From assembly GCA_026636295.1 (NCBI GenBank), contig CP089456.1:186001-250000 (forward strand): a stretch of 64,000 nucleotides of DNA, in the 5' to 3' direction. Under the pieces are notes generated by a model that saw nothing but the letters and a program-made list of their open reading frames with translations, was not told where the DNA came from and ran no database searches. Position numbers and translations under genes: made by a program. Origin of the DNA: Medakamo hakoo (taxonomy: Eukaryota; Chlorophyta; Trebouxiophyceae; Coccomyxaceae). The first letter of the stretch is position 1. Every line of letters starts with the position of its first letter. Of this stretch, positions 27,111-37,165 are shown one piece after another.

Positions 27111-27552
27111 AAAAACCTTCCGGCCATAGTCCCTCTCTCCCCACCATCTCAACCTCTGTTCCATCGCCCACGACCCCGGTCTTTGTGGCAAGCCCGCCGC
27201 ATCACAAAATTCCATCTCCCCCCAAGTGTTGGGCCGACACTCCCGACCAAAAAAAGGGAGTGAGCGTCCACCGTACGCGTGTGCAACGTCAAAAACAAAT
27301 CCAAGAAGGATTGTAACACATAGCGCCTGGTGGATTCGAACACACCGACCTCCGGGTCGCACGACGATAGCAACGATCCTTTTAATCGGAATTGCGATGT
27401 ATGAGCCCGGCGCTCTACCTCTGAGCTAAAGCGCTTGCTTTGCCTGGCGGGAATTTTTGGCGGTATTTAATACGCGGGTGTCCGTGGTCAGGGACAAACC
27501 CAAAAAAAAAACAGCTGCGCGTCCTCTCACACCCCCAAACACGCGCGGCAAA
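27111..27552. repeat. Duplicated block, copy A, carrying a tRNA gene
   Basis: About 442 bases here match 28613-29058 almost exactly, in the same orientation, with only scattered single-base differences and one 7-base unit (GTGTTGG) repeated in the other copy. Copy A sits directly upstream of SDHAF2 and includes the intact-looking tRNA at 27321-27435. The flanking sequence on both sides differs between the copies, so the borders at 27111 and about 27552 are sharp. Confidence 0.95.
27321..27435 (-). tRNA. tRNA-Met(CAU) with a 42-nt intron
   Basis: On the minus strand the 115 bases fold as a tRNA. The acceptor stem is AGCGCTT/AGGCGCT with discriminator A, followed by TA and a D arm GCTC-AGAGGTA-GAGC. 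The anticodon stem is CCGGG/CCCGG around the loop CTCATA-A, giving anticodon CAU. A 42-nt intron falls after the base 3' to the anticodon, the canonical nuclear position. The variable loop is AGGTC, and the T arm has loop TTCGAAT with one bulged base in the stem. Without the intron the tRNA is 73 nt. An intron in tRNA-Met(CAU) is known from plant elongator genes, and T54 in the T loop also fits an elongator. The A1:U72 pair and three consecutive G:C pairs in the anticodon stem are initiator-like, so the type is not certain. Confidence 0.85.
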
Positions 27553-30268: not shown

Positions 30269-30422
30269 GGTTTTTTGAGTTTTGTGAAAGGAGCGCGTTT
30301 TTTTTCTCTTCTACCAAACCTCCATTGGTTTTAGCGTGGGCGTCGCTCGCCACACCACGCCCTCTGCACACCGCAGTCACCCCGCCCAGACCACGTCCAG
30401 GTCGTCGCGCACCCAACAACAA

Positions 30423-31398
30423 ATGGCCACCACCGCCGGCGGCGTTGCCAGCGCCCTGGCCGAAGTCGCCGCGCGCGTCGCTGCCGCCGCGGCCAAGCGC
30501 CCGCCGCCGTCGCCGCCCGTCCGTTTGGTGGCAGTCTCTAAAACCAAGCCGGTGGCAGCTGTGGCGGCCGCATATGAAGCCGGCCACCGGGATTTCGGGG
30601 AAAACTACGTCCAGGTGAGTGGGTTGGGGCGGGCTGTTTCTTGTTTCGTTCGACCTTCTTCTCTCTCCGACGCTCGCTCCAACCTCCGCCTCCATCCCAT
30701 CACCTCACACACCACAGGAGCTCCTTGAAAAGGCGCCGCAACTGCCGGCCGACATCCGGTGGCACTTTATTGGTCACCTGCAGAGCAACAAGGCCAAAGC
30801 CCTGGTCGGTGAGTCTTGTGGGCGGAGGGGTGGCGGCGCGCGTTTTTGGCCTTTCCATACCATCCATTCCCATCCCATCCATCCCTCTCACCCTCCCCCC
30901 ATCTCTCCATCCATCCCTTTCCCAGAGGGCGTCCCCAACCTGGCGTGCGTGGAGACCGTCGACTCCGCCAAGCTCGCCTCCAAGCTGGACGCGGCCATCG
31001 GCGCGGCCCTCGGCTCCGGCGCCCGCCCCGCCGCCGCAGGGCCCCTGGCCGTCATGGTGCAGGTCAACACGAGTGGCGAGGAATCCAAGCACGGCGTCGC
31101 GCCGTCCGACGCGCCGGCCCTGGCAGCGCACGTCGCGTCCGACTGTTTGAACCTGCGCTTAGCCGGCCTCATGACCATCGGCATGCCGGACTACACGTCC
31201 AGGCCCGAGAATTTCGCGTGCCTGGCGTCCACACGCGCCGCGGTGGCCGCGGTGCTGGGGGGTGGGTGTGATCCGTCGTCGCTCGAACTCTCCATGGGCA
31301 TGTCGGGCGATTTTGAAGCCGCGATCGCGATGGGTTCCACGAATGTGCGCGTGGGGTCCACCATCTTTGGCGCGCGGGATTACGGGGCGACCGCGTGA
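30423..31398 (+). CDS. Pyridoxal-phosphate homeostasis protein (PLPBP/YggS)
   Basis: Exons 30423-30614, 30718-30808 and 30926-31398 (donors GTGAGT twice; phases 0 and 1) give 251 residues. The PLP-lysine strand is RLVAVSKTKPVAAV. GHRDFGENYVQ joins ELLEKAP across the first intron, and IRWHFIGHLQSNKAK follows. The C-terminal phosphate-binding part reads SLELSMGMSGDFEAAIAMGS and NVRVGSTIFGAR. This is the standard fold-type III YggS/PROSC protein that keeps free PLP low and delivers it to enzymes; no reaction is known. There is no clear targeting peptide, so a cytosolic location is likely. Confidence 0.95.
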
Positions 31399-31624: not shown

Positions 31625-34207
31625 TCACCATTCCATGCCTGGCCAGCCACCCGGGTCACTGTCCCGCCAGGGCAGCTCGTCCAGCAGCGCCCGCACGGCC
31701 TGGACGTCGGGCAAGTCCCGCTCCACCTGCACCCGCCACAGCCAGTCCTTGAGCCTTCCCAGCGTCCGTCCGGGCTTCAGCCCCGTCGCGTCCATGAGCG
31801 CGGCGCCGTCGAGGAGGGGGGCCGCACCCGCGCGCAGGGGCGGCAAGCGCCGCCACTCCTCCACAAACGCGTCCAGGCGGGTCGCGGTCTCGGTCGTCGC
31901 GTCCAGGGCGGCTTCCAGCAGCAGCTGCAGAATGAGCTGCGACCCCATGGCCGCCCGGAACAGGCGCATGGCGGCCGCGTCGGAGCCGTCGGGCAAGCGG
32001 CCGACGGCCGCGACGGCGCGCGTGACGCGCCTGGCTTCGTGCCGGCCGAGCTTGAGTGCTTTCGCCGCCCGGCCCGCCGCGTCCGGGCCCGCGCCCGCCA
32101 GGAGCAGGGCAATGCGCGCCACCGCTAGGTCAGGCGCGTCCCCGCCGTACGCGGCCACGCCGCCGGCGGTGGAGCGCGTCACCAGCGGCGCGGCGCCGTC
32201 GGCCGCCAGCCGGGTCAGCAGCGTGGCCAGGCCTTTCGCGTCCGCCAGCGCCGCGTGCGGCCGGCCGGCGAGGGGCAGGCCCAAATCGCCCAGCATTTGC
32301 GCCAGGCCAGCGCGCGGCCTCAAGTAGTGCTCCCGGTACAGGACGCCCGCGTCGCACCAGGCGGACGTCCAGGGCGGCGGGGACGTGGAGGGCGCGGGCC
32401 CGTCATCGTTGGCCGGGTCGGCGGAGGCGGCGGAGCCCAGCGCCGTCAGCTGCCGTGGCACGAGGGTCTCCAGGTCCCAGTCGCCGACCGTCACAGCGAC
32501 AAACCGGCCGTGTCCGCCCGCGTCGGCCGGAGACGACAACGCGCCGCGGTCGACCAGCCACGCCGTCAGCGACGCCAGCACGTCCGGCAGCGTAGGCGCG
32601 CCGTCCACGTGCGCTTGGGTCACGCCCGTGAACCGCACGCAAAAGTCGGACAGCGTCGGGTGGAGCGTGGGCCGGGCGTGCGAGTGGAATTCGGCGACCG
32701 GGCGGAGCGTGAGCGGCGGCCCCTCAAGGTCGTCCGGGGTCGACGCAGCAGCGGCCGGTCCGCCCTCTTCCACCTCCAGCAGCACCGCGCCGACTTCGAT
32801 GACCTCCTGCGGCTGTGGGGATTTGGGTGCGTCGCACGTGGCTTCCAGGTCCAGCGCCAGGACGTAGCGGGGCGGCGGCGGCGGCGGGCCGTGGAGGAAG
32901 GGCGCGTCTTCACAGGGCGAGCCCGGGCGGGGCGGCGCGCGGCCTGCAGCAGGCGCCGCGCCGGCCGCACTCGGCGCGCCAGAGTGCGGGTTGAGCCCGG
33001 TCGCCCGCGCCCGGGCGTGCAGCCGCCTCCAGGCCGGCAGGAGGTCGGCCTGGGCCCGGACGCCGGGAGCGGACGGCGACGTGTCGACGCCGGGGTCGCC
33101 GACCGCGGTCGCGAGCGCGCCGTCGGCCGCCATGGCGGCAATCACGTCCGCCGCGTGCTGCCCCACCAGAATTTTGGCCAGCTCCTCCCAGACGCGTTCC
33201 CGGGAGACGCGGGCGGCTGCGGCTTGGACGGCCGGCGACGCCAGCGCGGCAGCCAGGCCGGCGTCCGGCGTCCGCAGGCCGGCCGGCCCCGCGTCGAGGA
33301 AACGGTACGCGCGCCACACGCGCAGGCCGTCGTCAACCAGGCGGCGCGCCGGGTCGCCCACGGTCCGCAGCACGCACGCCGCCGCGTCGGCCGCGCCGCC
33401 AAACGGGTCCAGCAGGAGGCGGCGCCCCACGTCGACGGCCGACGCGTTGATGGTGAAGTCGCGGCGGGCGAGGTCGTCGACCAGGCGGCTCGCGGCCGCG
33501 ACGCTCTCCGGGCGCCGGCCGTCCGCGTACGTCCCCTCCGTCCGGATGGTCGTCACCTCCAGCACCACGCTGCCGCGTGTGATGGACGTCGTCATGAACG
33601 CGCCGCCCGTCTGGCGGTGCGGGACGGCGTCCGGGAAGATGGCCACCAACGCGTCGGGCGAGAGCGAGGTGCACACGTCGACCTCCCGTGGCGCGCGGCC
33701 CGTCAGGACGTCGCGCACGCAGCCGCCCACGGGCCAGGCACACCCGCCCGCGTCCGCAATGGCGTCCAGGACGTAGCGCAGGTCGCCTGGGAGACCGTCC
33801 ACCCAGGCGGCCAGGGCGGGCGGCAGGGGCTGGGGGGTGATGCCATCCAGCAGGGCCGCGACGGTCGCGTCGCCCAGGTCGGGCGTCGTCGCGGCCGGTC
33901 CTGCGGCCGCAGCAGCGGCTGCTTGCCTCTCACCACCCGGCGGCTCAGTGCTGGCAGACCGCTTGGCCATGGCGAGGAGCGCTGGGCGACCAGGCGGGCT
34001 CGGAACAGGCTGCCGCGAGGCGGCAATGCTTGGCGGCGACGGCGACGACGGCGGCGGCGTCGGCCGCAGCCAGGGCCCAGCACCAACGACTCCGGATGAC
34101 AGGGGGCGGGCGGTGGCGGCAAAAGCAGACGGATTCGTCGGCCAGGGCCGGCTGCGCATGAGGCGGAGGAGGGCGAGGGCGCGGCCGGCGCCGGACGGCG
34201 ATGGCAT
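31625..34207 (-). CDS. CCA-adding tRNA nucleotidyltransferase with a nested DEDDh exonuclease domain
   Basis: One uninterrupted frame of 860 residues and no intron. Residues 1-110 are a leader-like, low-complexity region. Residues 140-350 form the class II nucleotidyltransferase head and neck: GGCVRDVLTG, then REVDVCTS (the metal site, with E-x-D in place of the usual D-x-D), LARRDFTINA and VDDGLRVWRAYRF. Residues about 448-670 are an ERI1-like 3'-5' exonuclease: LALDLEAT (Exo I), HPTLSDFCVRFTGVTQAHVD, VTVGDWDLETL (Exo II) and HAALADAKGLATLLTRL (Exo III, H and D), so all DEDDh residues are present. The CCA body then resumes, with KALKLGRHEARRVTRAVAAV and ALMDATGLKPGRTLGRLKDW. The predicted enzyme both adds CCA and trims RNA 3' ends. 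A typical CCA enzyme is 400-550 residues, so the extra length is accounted for by the insert. Divergent from the SF1 helicase starting at 34355. Confidence 0.9.
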   Translation of the reverse strand: MPSPSGAGRALALLRLMRSRPWPTNPSAFAATARPLSSGVVGAGPWLRPTPPPSSPSPPSIAASRQPVPSPPGRPALLAMAKRSASTEPPGGERQAAAAAAAGPAATTPDLGDATVAALLDGITPQPLPPALAAWVDGLPGDLRYVLDAIADAGGCAWPVGGCVRDVLTGRAPREVDVCTSLSPDALVAIFPDAVPHRQTGGAFMTTSITRGSVVLEVTTIRTEGTYADGRRPESVAAASRLVDDLARRDFTINASAVDVGRRLLLDPFGGAADAAACVLRTVGDPARRLVDDGLRVWRAYRFLDAGPAGLRTPDAGLAAALASPAVQAAAARVSRERVWEELAKILVGQHAADVIAAMAADGALATAVGDPGVDTSPSAPGVRAQADLLPAWRRLHARARATGLNPHSGAPSAAGAAPAAGRAPPRPGSPCEDAPFLHGPPPPPPRYVLALDLEATCDAPKSPQPQEVIEVGAVLLEVEEGGPAAAASTPDDLEGPPLTLRPVAEFHSHARPTLHPTLSDFCVRFTGVTQAHVDGAPTLPDVLASLTAWLVDRGALSSPADAGGHGRFVAVTVGDWDLETLVPRQLTALGSAASADPANDDGPAPSTSPPPWTSAWCDAGVLYREHYLRPRAGLAQMLGDLGLPLAGRPHAALADAKGLATLLTRLAADGAAPLVTRSTAGGVAAYGGDAPDLAVARIALLLAGAGPDAAGRAAKALKLGRHEARRVTRAVAAVGRLPDGSDAAAMRLFRAAMGSQLILQLLLEAALDATTETATRLDAFVEEWRRLPPLRAGAAPLLDGAALMDATGLKPGRTLGRLKDWLWRVQVERDLPDVQAVRALLDELPWRDSDPGGWPGMEW

Positions 34208-34354: not shown

Positions 34355-37165
34355 ATGCCCGTGACTGTCCTCGCCTCCGCCGGCAAGGCGGGCGGCCGCT
34401 CCGCCAGCAGCACCAAGGCCAAACGCGGCAGTGAAAAAAACACGGCGCGCCCTGCTGCGCAGCGCGCCCGCCGCCCCTCCACGCCGCACACCGCGTCCCA
34501 GGCGGAGCTCCTGGCCGGCGCCGCCGCCCGCACTGCCGCCGCCGCCAAAAACGCGCGCGCCGTCGCCGCTGCCCGAGAAAAAGCCGCGGATGAGGCGGCG
34601 GCCATCGCCGCGATCGCGGCCGTGGCGGCGGGGCGGGCGTCGGTCGGGGCTCAAAGCCCCGACCACCCTCCACCCCGCCCGACGCCGGAGCTCACGGCGG
34701 AAGCCTTGCTCCGCCACGCGGGCGGGCCGGTGCCCCTGCCTGGTGCCGGTCCAGTCGACCCACTGACGGGTCCCCTCCCCTCGCCCGGCCCGCGGTCCAC
34801 GCGCGGCCGTGGCGCGCGGAAAGGCGCCGAGCGTGCGTTGCTGGCTGCGCACCACGCCACGCTCTCCGCCGCACTCCACGCCGAGCTGGCCGTGGAACGC
34901 GCGGAAGCGACCGCCCGCTTGCGCGACTGGCCACGTGCCCGCCTGGCGGCGGCGGGAGCCGCGCTGTTTGGCCTGTCGGTGAAGAGGGCGGGCGCGCTCT
35001 ACGGCGACCCGCTGCTCCGCCTTTCTCGCCCAGGCGGCGCGCCCCTGCCCTTCCACGCCTTTGCGCCCGGCGACGCCGTCATGATGACCCAGGGCGGGGC
35101 GGGCTCTCACCCGGACCTGGTTGACGTCGACGCCGGCGTTGAGGGCGTGCTCATGGACTATTCGTCGACGTGGCTGCGGGTCGCCGTCTCACCCGCGGCG
35201 GCCGCGCGCATGCTGGGCGGCGCTGGACGGCGAGGTGGTGCGCCGTCGTCGCCGCCCGCCGCCGCCTCTTCCGGCGGGTGGCGCCTCGACCTCCACGTCT
35301 CCCAGACACCGCACGACCGGTGTGTGGCCGCCCTGGCCGATTTCTGCGCGCCCGCGCCCGCCACGCGCAGCCCGGACGACGCAGCGTGTGCCGGCCTGCG
35401 CCGCGCGCTGGCGGCGGGCGCTGGTGGCGCGGCCACAGCTGCGGCGGCCGAAGCCGCCGCGTCGGCCCAGCCACCGTGGGCGACGGGCGCCGCCGCCAAG
35501 CACGCGCGCAAAGCAGCGGAAGCCGACCTGCGCTCGCCCACGACGGGCCTCAACCCCTCGCAAGCGGGCGCAGCTGTGGCGGCCCTGTCCCGCACCCTCA
35601 CCCTGATCCAGGGCCCGCCGGGCACGGGGAAGACACGCACGCTGGCGGCCCTGTTGGCGGCCATTGTGCGTCATTCCGTGCTGCGGCCGCCGCCGCGGCA
35701 CGCGGTCGCGCCGCCACAGCCACCGCCGGTGGCGGCGGCGTTGGCGCCGGCCAGCGGCGCACCGCCTCAACCATCGCCCGCCAACTCGCGGCCCGTCCCC
35801 ATCCTGGTCGCCGCCGCGTCCAACGTGGCCGTCGACAACATGATCAGTGCGCTGACGGAGGCGTGGGCGGGGTGCCCCACCCCGCTCCGCATCGTCCGCC
35901 TGGGCCCGCCGGCCAAAGCGTCGCCGGCCGTGCGCCACCTCTCGCTCGCGGCCCTGGCTGCCGAGTCGCCCACGGGCAAGGCGGCGGCGGCGGCCCGGGC
36001 CCGCGCTGCGGGGCTGGCCGGCCCTGCCGCCCGTGCCGAGCGCGAACGCGCCGCCCAGCTGACCGATGCCGCGGCGGCCCGGATTCTGAGCCGGGCGCAC
36101 GTCGTCGCCGCCACGTGCATCGGGGCGGGCGACCCCGTGCTCGACGGCCTGGGATTCGGCCTGGTCGCCCTGGACGAGGCCACGCAAGCCACCGAGCCGG
36201 CGGCGTTGGTGGCCCTGCTGCGCCGGGCCCGGGCGGCCGTCCTGGTGGGCGACCCCGCCCAACTGCCGCCCACCGTCGTCTCCGAGGAAGCGCTCGCGGC
36301 CGGCCTGGGCGTCTCGCTGTTTGAGCGCGCGGCCGCGGCGGGCGTGGCCGTCTCCTTGCTGGACACGCAGTACCGCATGCACCCGGCCATCTCAGCCTTC
36401 CCGTCGGGGCGCTTCTACCGCAGCCGCCTGGTGGACGGTGTGAGCGCCCGCGACCGGCCGCCGCCGCGGTCGTTCCCCTGGCCCGACGCGAGGTCGCCTG
36501 TCGCGTTTCTGCCTGTCGAAGAGGGGCGGGAGGTGCGGGCGGGCGGGATTGGCTTTCATGCGGGCACGGCGTCGACCACCACACTCGGCAGCGAGTCGGA
36601 CGAGGGAGAGAGGGGGCCGCCACCCAACGACGGCGGCGGCTCGTACGCCAACCCGGCCGAAGCCGCGGCGGTCGTCGCGGCCGCGCGCTCGTTGGTGTTT
36701 GGCGGCGGGGACGCCGGCGGCGACCGCCACCACCACCGCCTGTCCGCCGAGGACTTGGGCGTCATCACACCCTACGCCGGCCAGGCCCGCGCGCTGCGCC
36801 TGGCCCTGGACGCGGCGGGCTTGGGCGGCGTGGAAGTGCGGACAGTGGATGGCTTCCAGGGCCGCGAGAAAGAGGTCATCCTTTTCTCGGCCGTCCGGTC
36901 GAATCCTGGCCGCCGCGTGGGTTTCCTAGCCGATGGGCGGCGGTTGAACGTGGCCTTGACGCGTGCCCGGCGTGGACTTGTCGTCGTGGGCGCCCGCCAC
37001 ACGCTGGCGGCCGATGGCAACTGGCGCGCGTGGCTGGGGTGGGTCGATGGGCGAGGGTTGGTCGTGCGGCGTGACGACGGGCGGGCGGCAGGCATTTGGG
37101 AGGCGGTGGATGCAGTGACCGCTGCAAAGGGGCGTGGTGCTGCCAGGGAGGTTGAGGCTGAGTAG
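34355..37165 (+). CDS. Upf1-like SF1B helicase (IGHMBP2/SMUBP2-type)
   Basis: Single exon of 936 residues from the ATG at 34355; an in-frame ATG at 34256 adds 33 residues. Helicase motifs in order: Q-motif region LNPSQAGAAVAALSRTLTLI, GPPGTGKTRT (I), ILVAAASNVAVDNM (Ia), VALDEATQATEPAAL (II), LVGDPAQLPPTVV (III), LLDTQYRMHPAIS (IV), VRTVDGFQGREKEVILFSAV (V) and LNVALTRARRGLVVVG (VI). The N-terminal part has a beta-barrel-like region as in SMUBP2 and related proteins. Family members unwind RNA or DNA 5'-3'; IGHMBP2 is linked to tRNA and ribosome biology. The N-terminus (MPVTVLASAGKAGGRSASST) could be organellar. It shares a gap of about 150 bases with the divergent CCA-exonuclease gene. Confidence 0.9.
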   Translation: MPVTVLASAGKAGGRSASSTKAKRGSEKNTARPAAQRARRPSTPHTASQAELLAGAAARTAAAAKNARAVAAAREKAADEAAAIAAIAAVAAGRASVGAQSPDHPPPRPTPELTAEALLRHAGGPVPLPGAGPVDPLTGPLPSPGPRSTRGRGARKGAERALLAAHHATLSAALHAELAVERAEATARLRDWPRARLAAAGAALFGLSVKRAGALYGDPLLRLSRPGGAPLPFHAFAPGDAVMMTQGGAGSHPDLVDVDAGVEGVLMDYSSTWLRVAVSPAAAARMLGGAGRRGGAPSSPPAAASSGGWRLDLHVSQTPHDRCVAALADFCAPAPATRSPDDAACAGLRRALAAGAGGAATAAAAEAAASAQPPWATGAAAKHARKAAEADLRSPTTGLNPSQAGAAVAALSRTLTLIQGPPGTGKTRTLAALLAAIVRHSVLRPPPRHAVAPPQPPPVAAALAPASGAPPQPSPANSRPVPILVAAASNVAVDNMISALTEAWAGCPTPLRIVRLGPPAKASPAVRHLSLAALAAESPTGKAAAAARARAAGLAGPAARAERERAAQLTDAAAARILSRAHVVAATCIGAGDPVLDGLGFGLVALDEATQATEPAALVALLRRARAAVLVGDPAQLPPTVVSEEALAAGLGVSLFERAAAAGVAVSLLDTQYRMHPAISAFPSGRFYRSRLVDGVSARDRPPPRSFPWPDARSPVAFLPVEEGREVRAGGIGFHAGTASTTTLGSESDEGERGPPPNDGGGSYANPAEAAAVVAAARSLVFGGGDAGGDRHHHRLSAEDLGVITPYAGQARALRLALDAAGLGGVEVRTVDGFQGREKEVILFSAVRSNPGRRVGFLADGRRLNVALTRARRGLVVVGARHTLAADGNWRAWLGWVDGRGLVVRRDDGRAAGIWEAVDAVTAAKGRGAAREVEAE

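Follow-up and report, generated by a model that had tools for sequence, protein, structure and literature searches.

In a protein encoded by the ultrasmall trebouxiophyte green alga Medakamo hakoo, judging from its sequence and modelled fold, an ERI-type DEDDh exonuclease is lodged between the neck and the body of a class II tRNA nucleotidyltransferase. The frame is located on the reverse strand at positions 31625-34207 of the window, i.e. the whole 64,000-nucleotide stretch analysed (contig CP089456.1, positions 186,001 to 250,000), and is open for 860 codons plus a stop (Table 1). A Pfam scan of the 860-residue product detected both head and exonuclease, with PolyA_pol at residues 158-278 (E 1.4e-25), PolyA_pol_RNAbd at 332-366 (7.3e-5), and RNase_T at 451-663 (1.3e-12). 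These were followed by tRNA_NucTran2_2 at 700-836, which scored 22.1 bits, under the Pfam cut-off of 27, and 26.6 bits with the C-terminal part alone. Such an order of head, neck, exonuclease, and body/tail implies that the exonuclease is inserted rather than appended. The first-pass annotation had described it as nested in this manner, and its boundaries (residues 448-670, bases 32198-32866) lie close to our own (446-672, bases 32192-32872).

Table 1. Features of the fusion frame, in positions of the window
Feature	Position	Strand	Evidence
Whole fusion frame	31625..34207	-	Open reading frame; Pfam; relatives
Poorly conserved N-terminal extension, residues 1-79, upstream of Met80	33971..34207	-	Identity figures; Met placement
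Head, PolyA_pol, residues 158-278	33374..33736	-	Pfam; match to solved structures
Motif A, E175-V176-D177 (ExD, not DxD)	33677..33685	-	Alignment
Flexible loop YADGRRP, residues 227-233	33509..33529	-	Alignment
Motif B, R248-R249-D250	33458..33466	-	Alignment
Motif D amino-acid template DDGLR, residues 292-296	33320..33334	-	Alignment
Neck, PolyA_pol_RNAbd, residues 332-366	33110..33214	-	Pfam
Connector, residues 380-445: predicted helix 381-402 and Pro-rich linker	32873..33070	-	Fold model; alignment
ERI-type DEDDh exonuclease insert, residues about 446-672	32192..32872	-	Pfam; solved relatives; fold model
Exonuclease DxE: D453, E455	32843..32851	-	Alignment
Exonuclease D578	32474..32476	-	Alignment
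Exonuclease H651-x4-D656	32240..32257	-	Alignment
Body, residues about 690-790	31838..32140	-	Pfam; bacterial CCA profile; fold model
Tail, residues about 791-860	31628..31837	-	Bacterial CCA profile; fold model; archaeal comparison

Proteins of the same design occur elsewhere. An initial search, in which only the 7,994 candidates with the most shared words were scored, returned 11 proteins, 54-82% identical, that carry both domains. The insert is in frame in 10 of the 11 close relatives (54-81% identical); P0010 loses frame inside the exonuclease and was excluded from the model used for a second, alignment-based search (best 120 of 268). This second search added P0057 from Mesostigma viride (EukProt) as well as P0058, P0060, and P0061, at 33-35% identity, all four with both domains. 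The gene model P0059 of Botryococcus braunii follows the exonuclease through its first part (residues 491-527) before diverging. A search of other algae had been suggested in the first-pass annotation, and these two species supply the architecture, in Botryococcus as far as the exonuclease start. Across ten full-length members, mean pairwise identity was 0.80 for the head, 0.71 for the neck, 0.77 for the exonuclease core, and 0.74 for both body and tail (P0010 and P0011, the latter without its start, were excluded). The corresponding value for the N-terminal 118 residues was 0.25. A Met is found 2-4 residues ahead of a conserved KR in the window protein and in P0002-P0009, and residues 1-79 could possibly be an organelle-targeting extension.

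Among solved structures, ERI3 and ERI1 are closest in sequence to the insert. The five DEDDh residues previously claimed for it (D453, E455, D578, H651, and D656) are indeed all present, as they are in P0001-P0009, P0011, P0058, P0060, and P0061; P0010 is unreadable at H651 and D656. In the Mesostigma protein DLQ replaces DLE, with Gln for the Glu of DxE, and its inserted exonuclease is probably impaired. The nucleotidyltransferase of the same protein keeps the flexible loop, RRD, and EDGLR, with ExD as motif A.

The fold model of the fusion protein (pLDDT 83.5) is confident on both modules. It matched a bacterial CCA enzyme over 386 of 395 residues and contained a separate ERI domain, and thus displays a class II head, neck, body, and tail as well as an ERI exonuclease fold in the insert. 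A profile built from 37 bacterial CCA enzymes without HD gave two colinear matches to the window protein, one on each side of the insert, the first (model 6-217) at residues 140-358 with 201.8 bits and the second (model 249-391) at residues 695-833 with 13.9 bits (i-E 1.1e-5). Of 11 fused proteins scanned, this second, body-related piece had an i-E below 1e-3 in six (the window protein, P0001, P0002, P0003, P0005, and P0057), was weak in P0009 and P0061, and was absent in P0006, P0058, and P0060. Given such patchy matches, sequence support for the body is thin, and its assignment is carried by the fold model and by comparison with archaeal enzymes. The connector at 380-445 is missing from the unfused archaeal enzymes.

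The claim that the head motifs of CCA enzymes are visible holds in part. RRD of motif B and the flexible loop are present in the window protein and in all 15 aligned members, the loop reading DSRRP in Mesostigma and DGRRP in the rest, and the B/A-motif residues for A-addition, R222 and E/D224, occur in 12 of 12. However, the first Asp of the catalytic DxD in motif A is a Glu (E175-V-D177), and the template of motif D is DDGLR in place of EDxxR. ExD is shared by P0001-P0010 and Mesostigma, with DxD in P0058, P0060, and P0061 (P0011 is without the motif A region), while DDGLR recurs in all 11 close relatives and EDGLR in all four distant members (Mesostigma, P0058, P0060, and P0061). In a prokaryotic comparison comprising the best 80 of 589 confirmed loci, the first position of motif A was Asp in 77, Glu in two, and Asn in one, and motif D began with ED in all 80, DDxxR occurring in none. 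Among the 63 aligned segments of P0012-P0056, motif A contained Asp in 45 of 45 ungapped cases and motif D contained DD in three, so that DD is rare rather than unique. According to the available text of a study of selections on the human enzyme, DDxxR made up 36% of clones under A-addition with none recovered under full CCA, and E164D allowed only minimal growth under full-CCA selection (PMC11784652). In combination with ExD and DDxxR, these results mean that full CCA addition cannot be assumed in this clade. Since the catalytic DxD of motif A is lacking, we file the fusion as a class II relative by descent and not as a proven CCA-adding enzyme. These substitutions and the DLQ of Mesostigma suggest that both activities may not be retained in every lineage.

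The remainder of the M. hakoo genome offers a context for this assignment. We searched 15,638,232 bases in 16 contigs; the available text on the published assembly puts it at 16 nuclear contigs, the longest of 1,473,234, with an N50 of 1,246,908 and 73% GC (PMC9871001). A PF01743 profile search found three loci, and a degenerate pattern, RD[FL]T[IVM]N, found the same three, its reversed control matching none. Of these three class II genes, only the fusion has RRD and the flexible loop; in L002 (on contig C1) and L003 (on contig C7) neither the loop nor the first RRD Arg is present. L003 fits PcnB best, whereas L002 fits PcnB (128.5 bits) and CCA models (129.6 bits) about equally. The family of L002 (L002:1102-2874) is retained in the algal-looking relatives P0166-P0174, and from its sequence may be a CC-adding enzyme or a poly(A) polymerase. 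CCA after the discriminator is encoded in none of the 14 tRNA genes found (63 of 87 candidates scored; judged by reading), and in three of the 14 the letters CCA straddle the stem end and the discriminator. From the three-locus survey and these tRNA genes, the fusion emerges as the best candidate CCA enzyme in the genome, though introns or gaps may conceal an e-type gene.

Within the window itself, ARAGORN found no tRNA; at 27321-27435 on the reverse strand (C5:213321-213435), a 115-base segment matched tRNA with 47.9 bits and probably contains an intron. Divergent to the fusion gene lies a Superfamily 1 helicase (34355-37165, forward strand; AAA_11 and AAA_12), which we take to resemble IGHMBP2/SMUBP2 and whose first Met is 148 bases from that of the fusion. 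Tail to tail with the fusion gene is an apparent YggS/PLPBP-type pyridoxal phosphate protein, seemingly with introns (30336-31398, forward strand).

Comparison with known systems sets the arrangement apart. The bacterial class II CCA enzymes of Bacillus stearothermophilus (1miv) and Planococcus (6qxn) are without an exonuclease and have DxD and EDxxR, in contrast to the ExD and DDxxR of the fusion. Relative to the ERI1/ERI3 exonucleases (1zbh, 7k05), the insert came without further ERI domains in the Pfam scan, and we know of no exonuclease of this type inside a nucleotidyltransferase. To our knowledge, CCA addition and tRNA end trimming are activities of separate enzymes. RNase T and the CCA enzyme of Escherichia coli, as treated in the available text of PMC11784652, form the same opposed pair of activities but are two separate proteins. 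The Arabidopsis CCA-adding enzyme 9kma, which is e-type according to the accessible part of PMC7014341, has no exonuclease and did not appear among the sequences matching the window protein up to an E of 1, the best of which were bacterial. Closer in concept are the bacterial P0063 and P0064 (635 aa), in which an RNase_T-type exonuclease and a CCA enzyme likewise share one chain; they differ in that the exonuclease is appended at the N-terminus and an HD domain is present. As their head is placed among Bacillota, theirs appears to be an independent fusion, which in turn supports a functional link between the two activities. No described enzyme with the nested arrangement was found in the literature searched, outside which most subscription papers fall, in agreement with the first-pass annotation, which knew of none.

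Our preferred reading, which we regard as somewhat probable, is that the protein is bifunctional and both trims and rebuilds the 3' ends of tRNA. Class II enzymes grip the acceptor half of tRNA by tail, body, and neck. These regions would hold tRNA in the fusion as they do in class II tRNA nucleotidyltransferases, and the head would supply missing CCA nucleotides, perhaps the terminal A most readily given its DDxxR template. The exonuclease, which may be able to reach the same 3' end from the neck-body junction, would strip trailer, damaged, or wrong nucleotides off it, with trimming and rebuilding occurring in cis. We infer catalytic activity at both sites, a shared tRNA substrate, and cooperation between the sites. 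Loci resembling tRNase Z are present in the genome (none above the curated cut-off), and a trailer-trimming exonuclease is therefore not obviously needed.

The DDxxR change makes an A-adding role alongside a CC-adding partner a serious rival. The fusion would then be an A-adding or end-repair enzyme, the loopless C1 paralogue of the L002 family would add CC, and the exonuclease would be RNase T-like, removing the terminal nucleotide before A is restored. The human selections cited above, in which DDxxR kept A-addition and not full CCA, fit such a division of labour, as do L002 and its relatives, which have DxD and EDxxR and no flexible loop; the available text of PMC7014341 treats loop absence as a hallmark of bacterial CC-adding enzymes. 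However, L002, with its incomplete RRD and even fit to PcnB and CCA models, may be a poly(A) polymerase, and the four distant members of the fused family have EDGLR, which leaves this division of labour possible but doubtful.

A bolder variant, which we consider rather unlikely, is that of a proofreading tRNA nucleotidyltransferase. One site would add chiefly A, as DDxxR may indicate, and the tethered exonuclease would clear wrongly added or worn nucleotides from that tRNA while it stays bound, much like the editing site of a polymerase. A proofreading or tRNA-surveillance machine at a shared 3' end had also been put forward, as a hypothesis, in the first-pass annotation. The loopless partner would give CC, and a Poseidoniales-like enzyme would stand in place of the e-type in these algae.

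The protein might instead serve other RNAs. ERI1-type enzymes take part in rRNA or organellar RNA processing, and the exonuclease, being closest to ERI3 and ERI1, could do the same while the nucleotidyltransferase part mainly binds RNA or is a poly(A) polymerase. The head does match the poly(A) polymerase model pcnB at 92.6 bits and carries ExD in motif A. Yet the solved structures it resembles in sequence are those of bacterial CCA-adding enzymes, CCA models and structures fit it better than those of poly(A) polymerases, the loop and RRD are found in all aligned members, and among the genes found in the genome none is better suited to CCA addition; we judge a role of this kind improbable. That the fusion is an artefact of misassembly, of two genes run together, or of a missed intron is scarcely conceivable: no support for it was found beyond the apparent introns of a neighbouring gene, and it is refuted in substance by ten relatives whose insert stays in frame and conserves the catalytic residues, the mark of a single real frame, as well as by a model confident on both modules.

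The origin of the nucleotidyltransferase was approached with a tree of 67 heads (three of 70 rows dropped) covering 12 of 17 fused proteins and 40 of 80 loci, rooted at its midpoint, from which L018 and e-type sequences were absent. The fused heads formed one clade (98/89), with L013, from a Poseidoniales single-cell genome, as sister (100/99). L013:1435-2655 and L018:1486-2763 encode class II, bacterial-type CCA-like enzymes of 406 and 425 aa in two Poseidoniales (Marine Group II) genomes. They share a conserved C-terminal W with the fusion and differ by DxD, EDGLR, and the absence of an insert or any exonuclease. They also gave the best body and tail matches, at 49 and 75 bits, the next best of 229 sequences reaching 21. 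The head score is not specific (154.3 bits for the bacterial L014 vs 151.3 for L013), and in pairwise comparison the head shares more identity with some bacteria-type proteins than with the Poseidoniales enzymes. Each of the two archaeal genes is followed by a similar neighbour gene (likeness judged by eye), which argues against contamination. Archaea are known for class I CCA enzymes; none was found in the two Poseidoniales genomes (assemblies of about 0.9 and 1.3 Mb, which may be incomplete; control matched in five of 14). These observations are consistent with an ERI domain having entered a class II enzyme on one occasion, the recipient being a relative of the Poseidoniales archaeal enzyme. 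The event would predate the divergence of Trebouxiophyceae, Mesostigma, and a further lineage from one another.

If a conserved single chain joins both activities, one protein would suffice to test directly how trimming, repair, and quality control are coupled. Two catalytic positions that are otherwise nearly fixed vary naturally in this clade, and the Mesostigma homologue, with its damaged exonuclease motif, provides a natural control. A connection between the tRNA enzymes of algae and those of marine archaea is also possible. The design shared with relatives of the M. hakoo protein suggests one machine that would both cut back and rebuild the tRNA end.
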